DNA from: Shinisaurus crocodilurus
Lineage: Eukaryota > Chordata > Lepidosauria > Squamata > Shinisauridae
Direction of reading: 5' to 3'
Length of the DNA stretch: 64,000 nt
Assembly: GCA_021292165.1 (NCBI GenBank)
Contig: CM037878.1
Location: 11,152,857-11,216,856 of the forward strand
Of this stretch, positions 1,516-51,895 are shown in pieces. The number at the start of each line of letters is the position of its first letter. Position 1 is the first letter of the stretch. The notes below the pieces were generated by a model that searched no databases, was not told where the DNA came from, and saw only the letters and a list, made by a program, of their open reading frames with translations. The translations under genes were made by a program, and so were the position numbers.

Positions 1516-1617
1516 AGGTCCTTCTCAGTGGCCACTCCAGGCTCTTTCTGTGATGGCTGTGAGGGGGCGGGATCCGTTATCAGATTCTCCGCACTGAGGT
1601 CAAAGGAGTGTCTACAG

Positions 1618-1943
1618 CAGTGTTCTCCAACCTCGGGTCCCCAGATGTTTTTGGCCTACAACTCCCAGCTACGCTGGCTGGGGCATGCTGGGAGTTGTAG
1701 GCCAAAAACATCTGGGGACCCGAGGTTGGAGAACACTGCCGTAGACAGTGCTGAGCTGGACAGACCAATGGCCTGGCTCCGTGTAAGGGAGCTTCCTGTG
1801 AAGCCAATGGCAAGATTTCTCCCCTCACCCCCACCCCCTGGCCACCTCCCATTTCCCTTCGGATGGATGCACCTGAGGGAAATTCTTCCACTGGAGAAGT
1901 TGTAGCCCAAAAACATCTGGGGACCCAAGGTTGTTGATCACTG
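1618..1943. mobile_element. hAT foldback element carrying a captured CAPN10 exon-intron fragment
   Basis: The element starts CAGTGTTCTCC and ends CACTG, flanked by near-identical 8-bp TSDs: GTCTACAG (1610-1617) and GTCTATAG (1944-1951). Bases 1618-1738 are a full palindromic family-A MITE. Bases 1739-1899 match 51564-51719 in CAPN10, with three substitutions outside a C-rich stretch that has small indels; the match includes 27 bp of coding exon (1873-1899) and its splice donor. Bases 1900-1943 are a second, partial right arm of the MITE. It lies in intron 4 of the P450 gene in the same sense as both genes, so P450 pre-mRNA would carry CAPN10 sense sequence. Capture by the transposon is inferred; the homology and TSDs are seen. 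Confidence 0.82.
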
Positions 1944-2723
1944 GTCTATAGCTCAGGAGGGGGAATCCAAAATATCATGTGGTCCCTGGGATGGTCTCTC
2001 AGGGTCCATAGGATTGCGCTGCCCGTGATTAATATGGTTTAAAACCACCAAGACTATGTTTGGTCTGTGCTTTAAAGAAAGCCATCCTGGTTTGCATTTC
2101 CCAGACCTATGCACTGACCAGAACACCATTATCTTTCTGTTTTTGCACGTCTTCTCCAAATTTTGCATAACAGCTCTCAACTCAGGAAAATGTACCAAAA
2201 TGCACATAAAAATGCATATTTTATAGTAAAGTGTTAATATTTTAGGATAGAATGCTTATAAAATGTGTTTTGGGGATGTATATTATGTGAAAAAAATATG
2301 TTAAAAATAATGAACATTTTTGTGCATTTAAAAATGCAAAAAACAATGGCATATTGATGCAGAAATGGGACCAAACAGGCTTATGAATGAACACATTTGA
2401 TACTCATGCAGACTGGAAATAGGCTGATCTGTCTATCCCCAGCAGCACTATAGATAATTAAATAGTTTAAAAAATCCAGCCCAGCATCTCAACTTAACGC
2501 AATCTGAAACAGATGGCTTTTTAAGGCCCACTTAAAAGCCTGTACTCATGGAGCCAGATATATATATCCCATGTGAGGGAGTTCTAGAAATAAGGGGCCA
2601 CCACCAAGAAGGTCCTGTCTCTAGTGCTGCACAAGATTCTTCCCTCACCACAAACTGTCCAGTAACACTAACATTGTATTTTCTGTACATTTTAGGGGAA
2701 ATAAAAAAAAAAGATTTCCTCAC

Positions 2724-3098: not shown

Positions 3099-3832
3099 GT
3101 CTATGATATAACTACATTCTTAGGGCCATCTCCAGAATCAAGAGATGAAGCTCTTCTTATGCACATTAACATTGCCTGGATTACATCCATGAGACGTATC
3201 CTGAGATGTCTTAATTGTCTTGTGCAGGACCAAGATCATTTGACCAGCGACATTCTCTCATCAAGTAATGTGGTAAGAGAGACATGCAGCAACGTTCCTG
3301 GATTGATTAGGAGGATAACATCATCCATGTTATCTGCACTCAGCCAGACCCAGCAGGCATATAGGTAGGGTCAGTGTGGCACAGTGGTTAGAGACAAAGA
3401 CAAAGATTGGGGAGACAGACAAAGACAAATTCGGACAAAGATATTGGGGAGACAAATTCAGACATAGATTGGGGAGGCCCTGAATCACTTCCCCACTCAA
3501 CTGCGAAGCTTGCCAGGTGACTCTGGGGCAGGCACTAACAGTGGTGCTGCTAGGGCTAGATCTTGGGGCCAAAGTCCAGGACCTACAGCCCGGGGGGGGG
3601 GGGACACACACAAATGACCACCCAGAGTCTGGCAGGTGATGGAGGCCCGACGTCAGCTCATGAGCCAGCATGGGCACGCTGAGGCCCTTCCGAGGCTGGC
3701 TCCGGTCACCACAGCATCCTTCCTTTCTTCTTATTTTTACAAACATCTCATAGTCAGGGGCAGCCAGTCAGGCACATTCATGGTTACAGAGGCTCTTTTT
3801 ATCCTTTTCACTTTTTCGACATCTGAACCAGC

Positions 3833-3931
3833 CCTGAACACGCCCGATCTCGTCTGATCTCAGAAGCTAAGCAGGGTCAGGCCTGGTTAGTACTTGGATG
3901 GTGTGACCGCTTGGAATACCAGGTGCTGTAG
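3833..3931 (+). rRNA. 5S rRNA-derived pseudogene
   Basis: It matches vertebrate 5S rRNA over nearly its whole length: the cgcccgatctcgtctgatct block, aagctaagcagggtc, tacttggatgg and ggtgctgtaggg. The internal control region is damaged: GGATGG is followed by TGTGACCGC, where functional 5S has GGGAGACCGC. It is directly followed by a tRNA-type SINE, so it reads as the head of a chimera and not as a working 5S gene. Confidence 0.8.
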
Positions 3932-4125
3932 GGAGGGACCATCGCTCAGTGTGACAGAGCACCTGCTTTGCAGGCAGAAGGTCCCAGGCTCAACCCCCGG
4001 CATCTCCAGGAAGGGCTTGGAAAGAATCTTGCCTGAAACCCTGGAAAGCTGCTGCCAGTCAGTGTTGGCAATACAGGGCTAAATGGACCAAGGGTCTGAC
4101 AGTATAAGGCAGCTTCCTATCCCTT
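3932..4125 (+). mobile_element. tRNA-derived SINE fused behind a 5S rRNA segment
   Basis: It has a tRNA-like A box region (gctcagtgtgacagagcacc) and B box (ggctcaacccc), followed by a body ending ggtctgacagtataaggcag, then cttcctat. This body is a familiar reptile SINE type. It begins one or two bases after the 5S-like end (ggtgctgtaggg), so the unit is a 5S-tRNA chimera, or an SINE that landed exactly at a 5S end. Confidence 0.7.
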
Positions 4126-20075: not shown

Positions 20076-20966
20076 GAATTAAAGGCGAGTCCCTGAACAG
20101 AGATTCAAGTAGGATTGCAGACAGCTGAGGCTGGCAATCTGGTATCTTGAGATCTCAGGGGGTCTTGGTTCCTTTGGGGTAGGAAAGGGTGGGGGTGTGG
20201 CGGGTCAGCCAGCCCCCCCTTCCTCCACATGGTGGCAAGCGCTGGGATTCGAAGCTGAACCACAGAGTGTGTGCATGTGGGCAAATTGGGAAGCAGGAGA
20301 GACGTTGATACATGAGTAGAGGGTTTGTTATTTTTTAGAGATTTAAGTGTGAGTAAAAGTGGAATCGCTGTATAAATAACCATGTTGGGTTCACATTCAG
20401 TTTCCTAATACTTTTTACTATAGGAGTTTGACTTTAAAAATAAAATGGTATCTTTAAAAAATGGTACTAAAGGGTAAATTTCTGCATGCAGAGCGGTGGC
20501 AAGAAACATGCCAGTATTCCCCCCCCCCCCCCATTACCATTCTGCAGATTAGGAGAAAGAAGTGGTAAAGCCAGACACACGGGAGATTGTCATGCAGTTC
20601 TAATCAAAATATAATTTTGATAACCACTTGAGGCGGTTCCCAGAATTCACACAAAGTAAAACAGGCTCGTGGAAGAGACCATCATGACACGTAAACAATA
20701 ATTTGAAGTTAAACCCAGCAATCACTCAGAGCTGTTGCCACTGCCAGACTAGTTTCCCCAAATAGAGCACAGGTAAAGTGCAGTAATTAGAACTTGAAGC
20801 ATTAAGACAGAATAATTGCCCAAACTTCATCCTGTGGGTAGCTAAGAACATAACCTCATGACATTAACACAGACCAATCGTTCATTTATCCTCCTAGCAC
20901 TGTTTTGCCCTCTATGTGGGATCTTGACATAATTCTATATCAAATAACATCACTCCCTCTAATTAA

Positions 20967-21082
20967 CAGTGTTCTGCAACCTTGGGCCCCCAGATGTTTT
21001 TGGCCTTCAACTCCCAGCATGCCCCAGCCAGCTACGAGTTGTAGGCCAAAAACATCTGGGGACCCAAGGTTGCAGAACACTG
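20967..21082. mobile_element. Family-A foldback hAT MITE
   Basis: 116 bp with ends CAGTGTTCTGCAACC and GGTTGCAGAACACTG. Both arms carry the same compensating change (CTGCAACC against GGTTGCAG). Flanks CTCTAATT (two bases further out on the left) and CTCTAATA. Confidence 0.82.
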
Positions 21083-50958: not shown

Positions 50959-51498
50959 TGTGGAGAAAGCCAACCTAAGCCCCCTGCCTGACACACACAC
51001 ACTCACCAAGGAGGGGGGAAGGAGACCCAGGGGGGGGGGAGACAGCCAGTCTCCACAGATGACAAAGGGGACAAACAACATCTGCATAGAATCACCCCAG
51101 GGGGGAAGGCAGGAAGCATCCCCAGGTTTGTCAATGCTCTCGCATATCAGCCCCGTCTACATAAGACTTGAATACCTCGCCAGAGCAGACACTTCGGCAC
51201 CCATAAGAAATGGCCACTCAACACCATAGGATGGGACCATTAAGCAAGTGGCTTCAAAGGGACCCCATCCCACGGGGGGGAAGGCGTCACCCCACCTGAC
51301 CCAAAAGGCCGCCCCTCAGGGAGGGTGGCAACCCACCTGATTGGCAACCCACCTGATTACGGAGGGAGGGGCTACCTGAAACACCAAGGTATAAAACACC
51401 CTGCGCAAGGGAACTGGGTTGTTGGACCTGATCAACAATCTTGCCCCATGCCTGGGGTAAGGGAACGAAGGATCAGCAACCCCGGGTAGCCACACCCG
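50959..51498 (+). mobile_element. 5' part of the solo-LTR family, truncated
   Basis: It follows 24432 and 32934 closely from TGTGGAGAAAGCC to gcaaccccgggtag, including the TATA block (ggtataaaacacc, 51388). It stops before the tandem array and runs straight into the MITE arm at 51499. Confidence 0.8.
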
Positions 51499-51563
51499 GC
51501 ATGCCCCAGCCAGCGGGAGTTGTAGGCCAAAAACATCTGGGGACCCGAGGTTGGAGAACACTG
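51499..51563. mobile_element. Right arm of a family-A MITE beside the captured CAPN10 segment
   Basis: From gcatgccccagccagcggga, gttgtaggccaaaaacatct to GGAGAACACTG at 51563. The left arm is replaced by the LTR. The sequence after its end (CCGTAGAC...) is the one found behind the MITE at 1739. Confidence 0.82.
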
Positions 51564-51692
51564 CCGTAGACAATGCTGAGCTGGACAGACCAATGGCCTG
51601 GCTCCATGTAAGGGAGCTTCCTGTGAAGCCAATGGCAAGATTTCTCGCCCCACCCCCGGCCACCTCCCCCATTTCCCTTCGGATGGATGCAC

Positions 51693-51895
51693 CTGAGGGA
51701 GATTCTTCCACTGGAGAAGACCCGAAGCAGGAAGTTCCCCTCAGCATCGTTCAGGAAGGTGCTGGGGACGACAAGGTAATACCCAGGAGAAAGGTTGCAA
51801 TGCAGGTGCACCTCCCGATTGTAGGAGTGACAAACAGTGCCCGAAATCGGGGGCGCAGAGAGGGTCTTCGGGAGGTTGAACTGTTTCTTCTCGAC
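51693..51895 (-). CDS. CAPN10: CAPN10 exon, end of first C2-like domain; source of the captured fragment
   Basis: 203 bp from ...ccctccag|GTCGAG to CTCAG|GTGCAT, phase 0 to 2. It encodes [41 protein letters not shown] and [13 protein letters not shown]. It matches the human calpain-10 order (NLPRVLS..PVAGT..HLRCELSPGYYLAVPSTF). The last 27 bp (51693-51719) and the donor reappear at 1871-1899. Confidence 0.95.

Follow-up and report, generated by a model that had tools for sequence, protein, structure and literature searches.

A hAT-type MITE unit carrying calpain-locus DNA in Shinisaurus crocodilurus may have formed by homology-primed gap repair

Introduction

The way in which DNA transposons take up host sequence remains a matter of debate. 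The Pack-MULE and Pack-TYPE elements of plants belong to superfamilies other than the one treated here and form larger amplified families, and in Xenopus tandem repeats grow inside MITEs. For animals, the survey of Tan et al. 2021 (PMC8277862) reports 370 Pack-TIRs in 100 genomes, 208 of them hAT. They are described as mostly single-copy, with 160 of 281 unique cases (56.9%) lying ≤15 kb from the donor and with microhomology that, where present, has a median of 2 bp, and gap filling is given as their explanation. According to the Methods of the survey, parental copies with a TE within 100 bp were discarded, and the authors state that end-bypass cases may be missed.

Here we describe a comparable unit in a 64,000-nucleotide stretch of the Shinisaurus crocodilurus genome (the window). 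The unit has non-TE host sequence between two ends of one TIR family, and one TSD (7/8 match) surrounds the whole, with empty sites elsewhere. Its parental copy is identifiable and intron and splice site are included, so that it is not a retrocopy; lying inside a real TSD and joined to a hAT-type MITE, it bears out the DNA-level capture read by the first-pass annotation. Members of its MITE family have the 8-bp TSD and CAGTG/CACTG ends of hAT-type MITEs. The unit also shows what characterizes Ac/Ds-type composite insertions, namely TE ends, a flanking duplicate, an 8-bp TSD and short microhomology at the junction. A MITE abuts the donor segment at 51563/51564, within the 100 bp that Tan et al. 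kept free of TEs, a rule that was a survey filter and not a mechanistic criterion. The first-pass annotation had read the locus as a CAPN10 fragment captured by a hAT element in a P450 intron, and overall that interpretation is partly supported.

Results

Structure of the calpain unit

We confirmed that 1618-1943 (326 bp) is a real MITE-bounded unit with copied calpain-locus DNA. The order across 1610-1951 is GTCTACAG, a 121-bp MITE, a 161-bp calpain-locus copy, a 46-bp MITE arm and GTCTATAG. The features of the unit, its site and its donor are:

1583..1617, plus strand: older dispersed repeat, left of the insertion point
1610..1617, plus strand: left target-site duplication GTCTACAG, present as a single copy at the empty site L028
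1618..1738, plus strand: complete hAT-type MITE (CAGTG...CACTG), a near-perfect palindrome
1739..1746, plus strand: CCGTAGAC, flank of the donor MITE, identical in the calpain locus
1741..1800, plus strand: SINE tail (dispersed repeat), formerly part of the donor flank
1801..1872, plus strand: calpain intron sequence, otherwise only in the calpain locus (4/40 scored places in all)
1873..1899, minus strand: 27 bp of calpain exon adjoining the splice donor CAG/GTGCAT
1898..1943, plus strand: 46-bp right arm of another (resident) MITE
1944..1951, plus strand: right target-site duplication GTCTATAG, 7/8 against the left
1952..2024, plus strand: the same older dispersed repeat as at 1583..1617, right of the insertion point
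51464..51563, plus strand: donor MITE in the calpain intron
51564..51719, plus strand: source of the copied flank, made up of SINE tail, intron and 27 bp of exon
51693..51895, minus strand: calpain exon, domain III

The within-window search aligned 1690-1899 to 51515-51719 with 93.4% identity over 212 columns (E 8e-89). Taken alone, 1739-1899 matched 51564-51719 of the calpain locus at 91% identity (E 1e-58), and the exon piece 1873-1899 shares 26 of 27 bp with 51693-51719, so the annotated coordinates and the match with exon and splice donor hold. The calpain-locus match extends to the left through 49 bp of MITE arm that are identical at both places, and the filler begins exactly where the donor MITE ends. 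The splice donor is intact in the window unit, and the bases preceding it are altered in the duplicate copy.

Of 132 candidate places for the 161-bp query, 40 were scored; 36 of these matched about positions 3-62 only, at 80-88%, and positions 63-161 were present at four (two units and two calpain loci). The captured "intron" of the first-pass annotation is accordingly calpain intron at 1801-1872, whereas about 60 bp (1741-1800) are a dispersed SINE tail, which can be aligned with a SINE elsewhere in the window (about 4064-4118) and with sequence flanking the family MITE L006. Positions 3815-3934 are 5S rRNA-like (Rfam 62.5 bits) and head a SINE-like stretch, the tail of which resembles the sequence adjoining the donor MITE in the calpain intron.

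The left arm of the unit is a perfect inverted copy of the inner arm (0/46 differences, with the CTCGGG variant) and differs from the outer arm at 5 of 46 positions. The outer right arm has variants, GATCACTG and TAGCCC, that are absent from the inner arm and the donor, and the AG common to both sides of the junction at 1898 is a 2-bp microhomology. The MITE loop is 14 bp longer in the duplicate unit copy (L002) than in the window copy. Between the 8-mer CCGTAGAC and the left TSD of the unit, no more than 3 of 8 positions agree. The fragment had been described as lying between MITE ends in one 8-bp TSD; the TSD stands, at 7/8 and with empty sites, but the left part is a complete MITE. With two MITE ends in one TSD, the unit may be able to move.

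The plus strand of the unit is predicted to fold into a strong hairpin (z -11.1). The orientation fits the earlier prediction that P450 pre-mRNA, transcribed from the minus strand, would carry calpain sense sequence beside this hairpin; any effect on the P450 transcript is hypothetical.

Insertion site and target-site duplication

The TSD of the unit, GTCTACAG/GTCTATAG, matches at 7 of 8 positions. Of 40 places scored for a query of the joined flanks (from 840 first-look candidates), 37 matched across the insertion junction without a break, and the remaining three rows were flanks of the two unit loci themselves. One copy read base by base (L028) runs ...GGAGT-GTCTACAG-TCTTGGGAGGGGG, with one 8-mer and without the insert. 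These empty sites are paralogues within the repeat family and do not represent the orthologous position in a relative. Because joined flanks run through the insertion point in repeat copies, the TSD is real, and the comparison shows that a MITE-ended insertion with an 8-bp duplication happened at the P450-intron site.

The MITE family has CAGTG/CACTG terminal inverted repeats and an 8-bp TSD, which matches at 7-8/8 in most listed simple copies, and its target resembles nTCTAGAn. We rejected fold-back synthesis from the palindrome-like extension GTCTACAG/CCGTAGAC, as the family shares this nearly palindromic target. The family MITE at L006:1501-1673 (TSD GTCTACAC, 8/8) occupies a SINE-tail site like the one used by the calpain MITE, a hint of a target hot spot.

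Donor locus, host gene and duplicated block

The right arm of the donor MITE is identical to the inner arm of the unit (46/46), and its left half is degenerate (38/79 columns). The translated exon 51693-51895 matched Pfam Calpain_III (E 1.8e-10), and the solved structures that match it are calpain-1, calpain-2 and a mu-like calpain; the name CAPN10 is an assumption taken over from the first-pass annotation, and our analysis supports calpain domain III only. We saw no second MITE end in the donor exon. The host gene is presumably a P450, a label that comes mainly from the first-pass annotation and from sequence motifs: among its exon-like minus-strand pieces one gave a weak match (E 2.7e-4, below the Pfam cut-off) and another gave no hit.

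The same contig carries, about 409 kb away, a further copy of both unit and donor; identity, flanks included, is 97-98%. The homology of this block spans at least 10.99/11.40 Mb to 11.30/11.71 Mb on C3, sampled pieces are mostly 96-99.7% identical, and short N gaps are present in 4 of 18 fetched pieces; the block may be a genuine tandem duplication, or it may represent two haplotypes assembled one after the other. We rejected two independent units, and count one capture event, because the second unit/donor pair sits in the duplicate block. A search of the assembly for further copies had been suggested; the one found is that in the duplicate block, and the genome search with the 161 bp gave no second insertion site for the calpain unit. 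Both unit copies share about four substitutions and one indel relative to the donor within 161 bp, and the duplicate blocks differ by 30 mismatches in 3117 columns. Because the shared changes are denser than the mismatches between blocks, capture probably preceded the block duplication.

Recurrence of the build

We examined 244 kb, made up of the window and 18 pieces and holding partly the same sequence twice, in which there were 40 left and 39 right MITE ends. A second unit lies outside the window at L031:1043-1445 (C3:11241042-11241444) in a perfect TSD (CGCTAGAG, 8/8). A 71-bp part of one MITE is followed by about 226 bp of unique DNA and then by a complete MITE; read on the opposite strand, this order is that of the calpain unit. 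Its junction microhomology is GC. Its filler was found in four places only, two of them in the duplicate block, and its donor lies in the window, 67 kb from the unit:

20737..21082, plus strand: donor of the second unit (unique flank and MITE 20967-21082)

In a third candidate at L037:2784-4033 (C3:11542783-11544032; 1250 bp, TSD 7/8), a P450 exon fragment, 98.9% identical to C3:11400788-11400969 at a distance of about 143 kb, is combined with flank sequence of another MITE about 12 kb off. An LTR-like insert complicates this candidate, and it was left out of the unit/donor pairs below.

Genome-wide, we searched for a right MITE end followed after 50-80 bases by the start of a right arm, a distance too short for a full second MITE. 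This pattern, which used exact consensus stretches and short fillers, gave 210 + 252 = 462 hits, against none for the pattern read backwards. About 100 of the 462 hits were listed, including tandem arrays and repeated fillers, and 20 loci were taken in list order, with arrays and further same-filler copies skipped by eye. At 11 of the 20 the outer flank equalled the left TSD at 7-8/8 and the inner flank matched it at 2-6/8. Six loci were local tandem duplications or arrays (L048, L051, L057, L058, L063, L065), two were ambiguous (L050, L055) and one had no left end in range (L066).

Fourteen loci were classed by the script as not local, and 12 of them had a TSD match of at least 7; on permutation the mean was 1.6 and the maximum 9, and none of 20,000 shuffles reached the observed sum. 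Without L063 and L065, which are local by eye, the count was 11 of 12. Because permuted TSDs rarely match, the outer-flank matches do not come from a shared target preference. Left MITEs were <105 bp in L060, L061, L062 and L064, and L052 and L060 are weaker members, as their left TSD matches the inner flank at 6/8.

Tandem arrays of MITE arm plus flank were seen at C1:314414810-314415587, C1:317439079-317439562, C1:4498365-4499617 and C2:146160409-146160642, with spacings of about 48-49 and 84 bp. They are possible cases of minisatellite birth.

Donors and same-filler units

Donors were found for four of the eight fillers searched. Three were on the same contig as their units, at 66 kb (L047), 5.7 kb (L052) and 11.7 kb (L054); the fourth, for L061, lay at 1.5 Mb with 93% identity, and the L061 filler is partly repetitive, with four further partial matches on other contigs. 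Donor searches with the fillers of L053 and L056 gave no result, that of L059 gave only a 30-bp piece 153 bp away, and that of L049 gave none beyond L084, which we rejected as a donor as it is another copy of the L049 locus. The four fetched donors are single MITEs with TSDs of 8/8 (L081, L085), 7/8 (L082) and 5/8 (L083). Each of the four units has the order donor right arm, donor 8-mer (one base changed in the L052 unit), donor flank and MITE arm. The bases common to both parents at the last junction number 2 (L047, L054) or 4 (L061), and filler and donor are 93-100% identical, compared with 91-96% for the calpain unit and L031.

We fetched five groups of same-filler units, of which three (L067/L071, L072/L073 and L079/L080) had different TSDs; the other two were L074/L075 and L076-L078. 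The units L067/L071 and L072/L073 (the latter 2.4 kb apart) lie in unrelated flanks, a sharing that may reflect transposition or MITE-to-MITE conversion. L079/L080 is the youngest case. L079 (C1:319485350-319485890) holds the filler, arm and TSD of L080 (C1:320600850-320601390) and 84 bp beyond, and the two are identical over 173 bp beyond the inner MITE end, 92 bp of them from the TSD of L080 outward. Five of the 121 sites in their left MITEs are different, two of them in the flank-side arm, and the TSD around L079 is not that of L080. A plain move of L080 was rejected for L079 in favour of a second-round capture of L080 plus flank.

Many hAT transposase domains were found in the genome (150 scored of 7321 candidates; hits in 0 of 14 control genomes), several of them in open frames >800 aa and none linked to the MITE family.

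Position of the switch within the MITE

We compared six unit/donor pairs (calpain, L031, L047, L052, L054 and L061). The flank-side 46 bp agreed with the donor at 45-46 positions in five pairs; in the sixth the donor has an insert, and agreement covers the last 30 bp. The distal MITE half was 48-85% identical to the donor in all six pairs (38/79 columns for calpain, and 56/70, 79/93, 59/75, 62/89 and 51/96 for the others). L054 and its donor L083 have in common a private base in the flank-side arm that is in neither the outer arm nor a family copy.

As a control we used 18 simple MITEs, all those listed outside the duplicate pieces L039-L043. Their 153 pairs had a mean distal identity of 80%, with 79 pairs at ≤85%, and mean divergences of 8.3% flank-side and 19.6% distal; for 10 chosen MITEs (45 pairs) the divergences were 3.0% and 9.9%. 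Among the 153 pairs, 51 reached 45/46 flank-side and 20 of the 153 were also ≤85% identical distally. Because a flank-side match of 45/46 occurs in 51 of 153 unrelated pairs, flank-side identity alone is weak evidence. The control also makes the distal halves of the donors like those of unrelated MITEs and not worse, which leaves slightly less weight for gap repair, and for the genome-wide capture reading discussed below, and slightly more for transposition of a finished chimera. Taken together, these data suggest that the switch lay inside the MITE and that the resident site supplied the other end, not that the donor MITE travelled with its flank; for the calpain unit itself the evidence is mixed, as its left arm matches the inner arm and not the outer one. 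The main escape from this reading is that the distal halves of the donors may have decayed later.

Discussion

With moderate confidence, we interpret the calpain unit as a hAT MITE of Pack type whose origin was homology-primed gap repair from a nearby MITE, with run-through into its flank. A MITE would first have inserted into the old dispersed repeat in the P450 intron, making the 8-bp TSD seen against the empty sites. This resident MITE would then have broken near its palindromic centre, through hairpin breakage or attempted excision. The broken end would have invaded the related MITE about 50 kb away in the calpain intron and copied its right arm, and copying would have left the donor MITE end and run on through the 8-mer, SINE tail, intron and 27 bp of exon, whose presence in the unit is observed directly. 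Finally, the nascent strand would have dissociated and joined the right arm of the resident MITE at the observed 2-bp microhomology.

This repair reading is favoured by the TSD and empty sites, the start of the filler at the donor MITE end, the outer-arm variants, the recurrence of the build, the nearby donors and the distal halves, and also by the private base of L054/L083, the 2-4 bp of junction microhomology and the L079/L080 case. Against it, left and inner arms are identical, which is what transfer of the donor MITE itself would produce, and the reading must assume later hairpin conversion to account for this. In L079/L080 two of the five differences are in the flank-side arm, donors are missing for four of eight fillers, the TSD is 7/8 and flank-side identity is weak evidence. 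A pre-capture allele with the resident MITE alone was not found in the one genome searched.

A chimera may instead have formed near the calpain locus by template switching and then transposed whole into the P450 intron, making the TSD as it inserted; either the FoSTeST model (Tan et al. 2021) or an end bypass that used a second MITE end would account for the chimera. We consider this unlikely, though a serious contender. It fits the identity of the left and inner arms, both of donor type, as well as the same-filler units with different TSDs at two sites (L067/L071; L072/L073), and the genome has hAT transposase domains, some in open frames >800 aa, though none was tied to the family. However, MITE-to-MITE conversion could also yield same-filler units, the calpain unit was found at one independent locus only, the donor exon shows no second MITE end, and the distal half is unlike that of the donor in all six pairs. 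The last point also weakens the proposal of the first-pass annotation that the exon-adjacent MITE and its flank moved as one; the unit's left arm does fit this proposal.

By analogy with maize Ac, a hAT, the unit might be a composite insertion from alternative transposition with re-replication, in which the ends of two linked elements are used and the re-replicated flank is end-joined in one 8-bp TSD. The maize cases share its anatomy of TE termini, flanking duplicate, 8-bp TSD and short microhomology at the internal junction (PMC4270019), and several of our donors are linked in cis. Most of the insertions described there measure 10-24 kb, and large tandem duplications accompany several of them, whereas the fillers here are about 30-230 bp, and we regard this origin as improbable. 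Ordinary segmental copying (an old calpain fragment with independent MITE insertions) or a chimeric, mis-assembled contig is least credible and very improbable. In its favour, the region belongs to a block that recurs about 409 kb away, and short N gaps occur close by. Against it, the site is crossed without the calpain fragment by 37 of 40 scored copies of the repeat, the 161 bp begins exactly at a MITE end, the unit is in both duplicate copies and the build recurs elsewhere with other donors.

Beyond this unit, gap repair leads to a broader and more tentative reading, which we put just short of an even balance: one abundant palindromic MITE family would be a genome-wide capture system acting through break repair from neighbouring copies, in which synthesis tends to continue past the end of the template copy and take over its flank. 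A rough extrapolation, from 462 hits, a share of roughly one half of the listed rows judged distinct by eye and 11 of 20 sampled loci, would give around a hundred short-filler units; longer units with calpain and P450 exon pieces would come on top of these. As part of the same tentative reading, the process could act on its own products (L080 into L079).

One genome thus offers many units, several nearby donors, base-level junctions and a one-sided homology tract that may record the template switch. With so many readable units and donors, gap filling, end bypass and transposition of a ready-made chimera become distinguishable from sequence. The findings suggest that copying a neighbour's surroundings during repair of a broken element may be a common route of gene-piece shuffling, and that a genuine pathway by which animal DNA transposons shuffle exons could escape surveys in which donors next to a transposon are discarded.

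Comparison with known systems

At the level of titles and the openings of abstracts, we found no description of this build in a squamate or of MITE-to-MITE run-through. The view that such capture is rare and chiefly a plant phenomenon is weakened by the 370 animal Pack-TIRs reported (PMC8277862) and by the further units of the same build in this genome.

The local tandem units of MITE arm plus flank (6/20 loci) resemble the tandem repeats growing inside MITEs; those repeat their own flank, whereas the calpain unit carries a foreign one. Plant Pack-MULE and Pack-TYPE elements, the subject of PMC8903248, likewise capture gene pieces at the DNA level. The maize Ac/Ds composite insertions reported by Zhang et al. 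2014 (PMC4270019) are alike in having hAT ends around a copied flank and an 8-bp TSD, with microhomology at the internal junction in several alleles as in the calpain unit. They differ in their kilobase scale and their origin by reversed-ends transposition with re-replication, and they were seen in new alleles, whereas here the event is inferred from sequence.

A close likeness is to the hAT members of the animal Pack-TIRs as surveyed by Tan et al., which have a host fragment between TIR ends in one TSD with a donor on the same chromosome. The calpain unit, with its donor 50 kb off, shares with them the 2-bp microhomology, the single copy and the gap-filling model. In contrast to the surveyed elements, a MITE borders the copied segment in the donor here, and one switch would accordingly go via long homology and not microhomology, and the build recurs within one MITE family. 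This build is a variant of Pack-TIR formation which the 2021 animal survey excluded by design.
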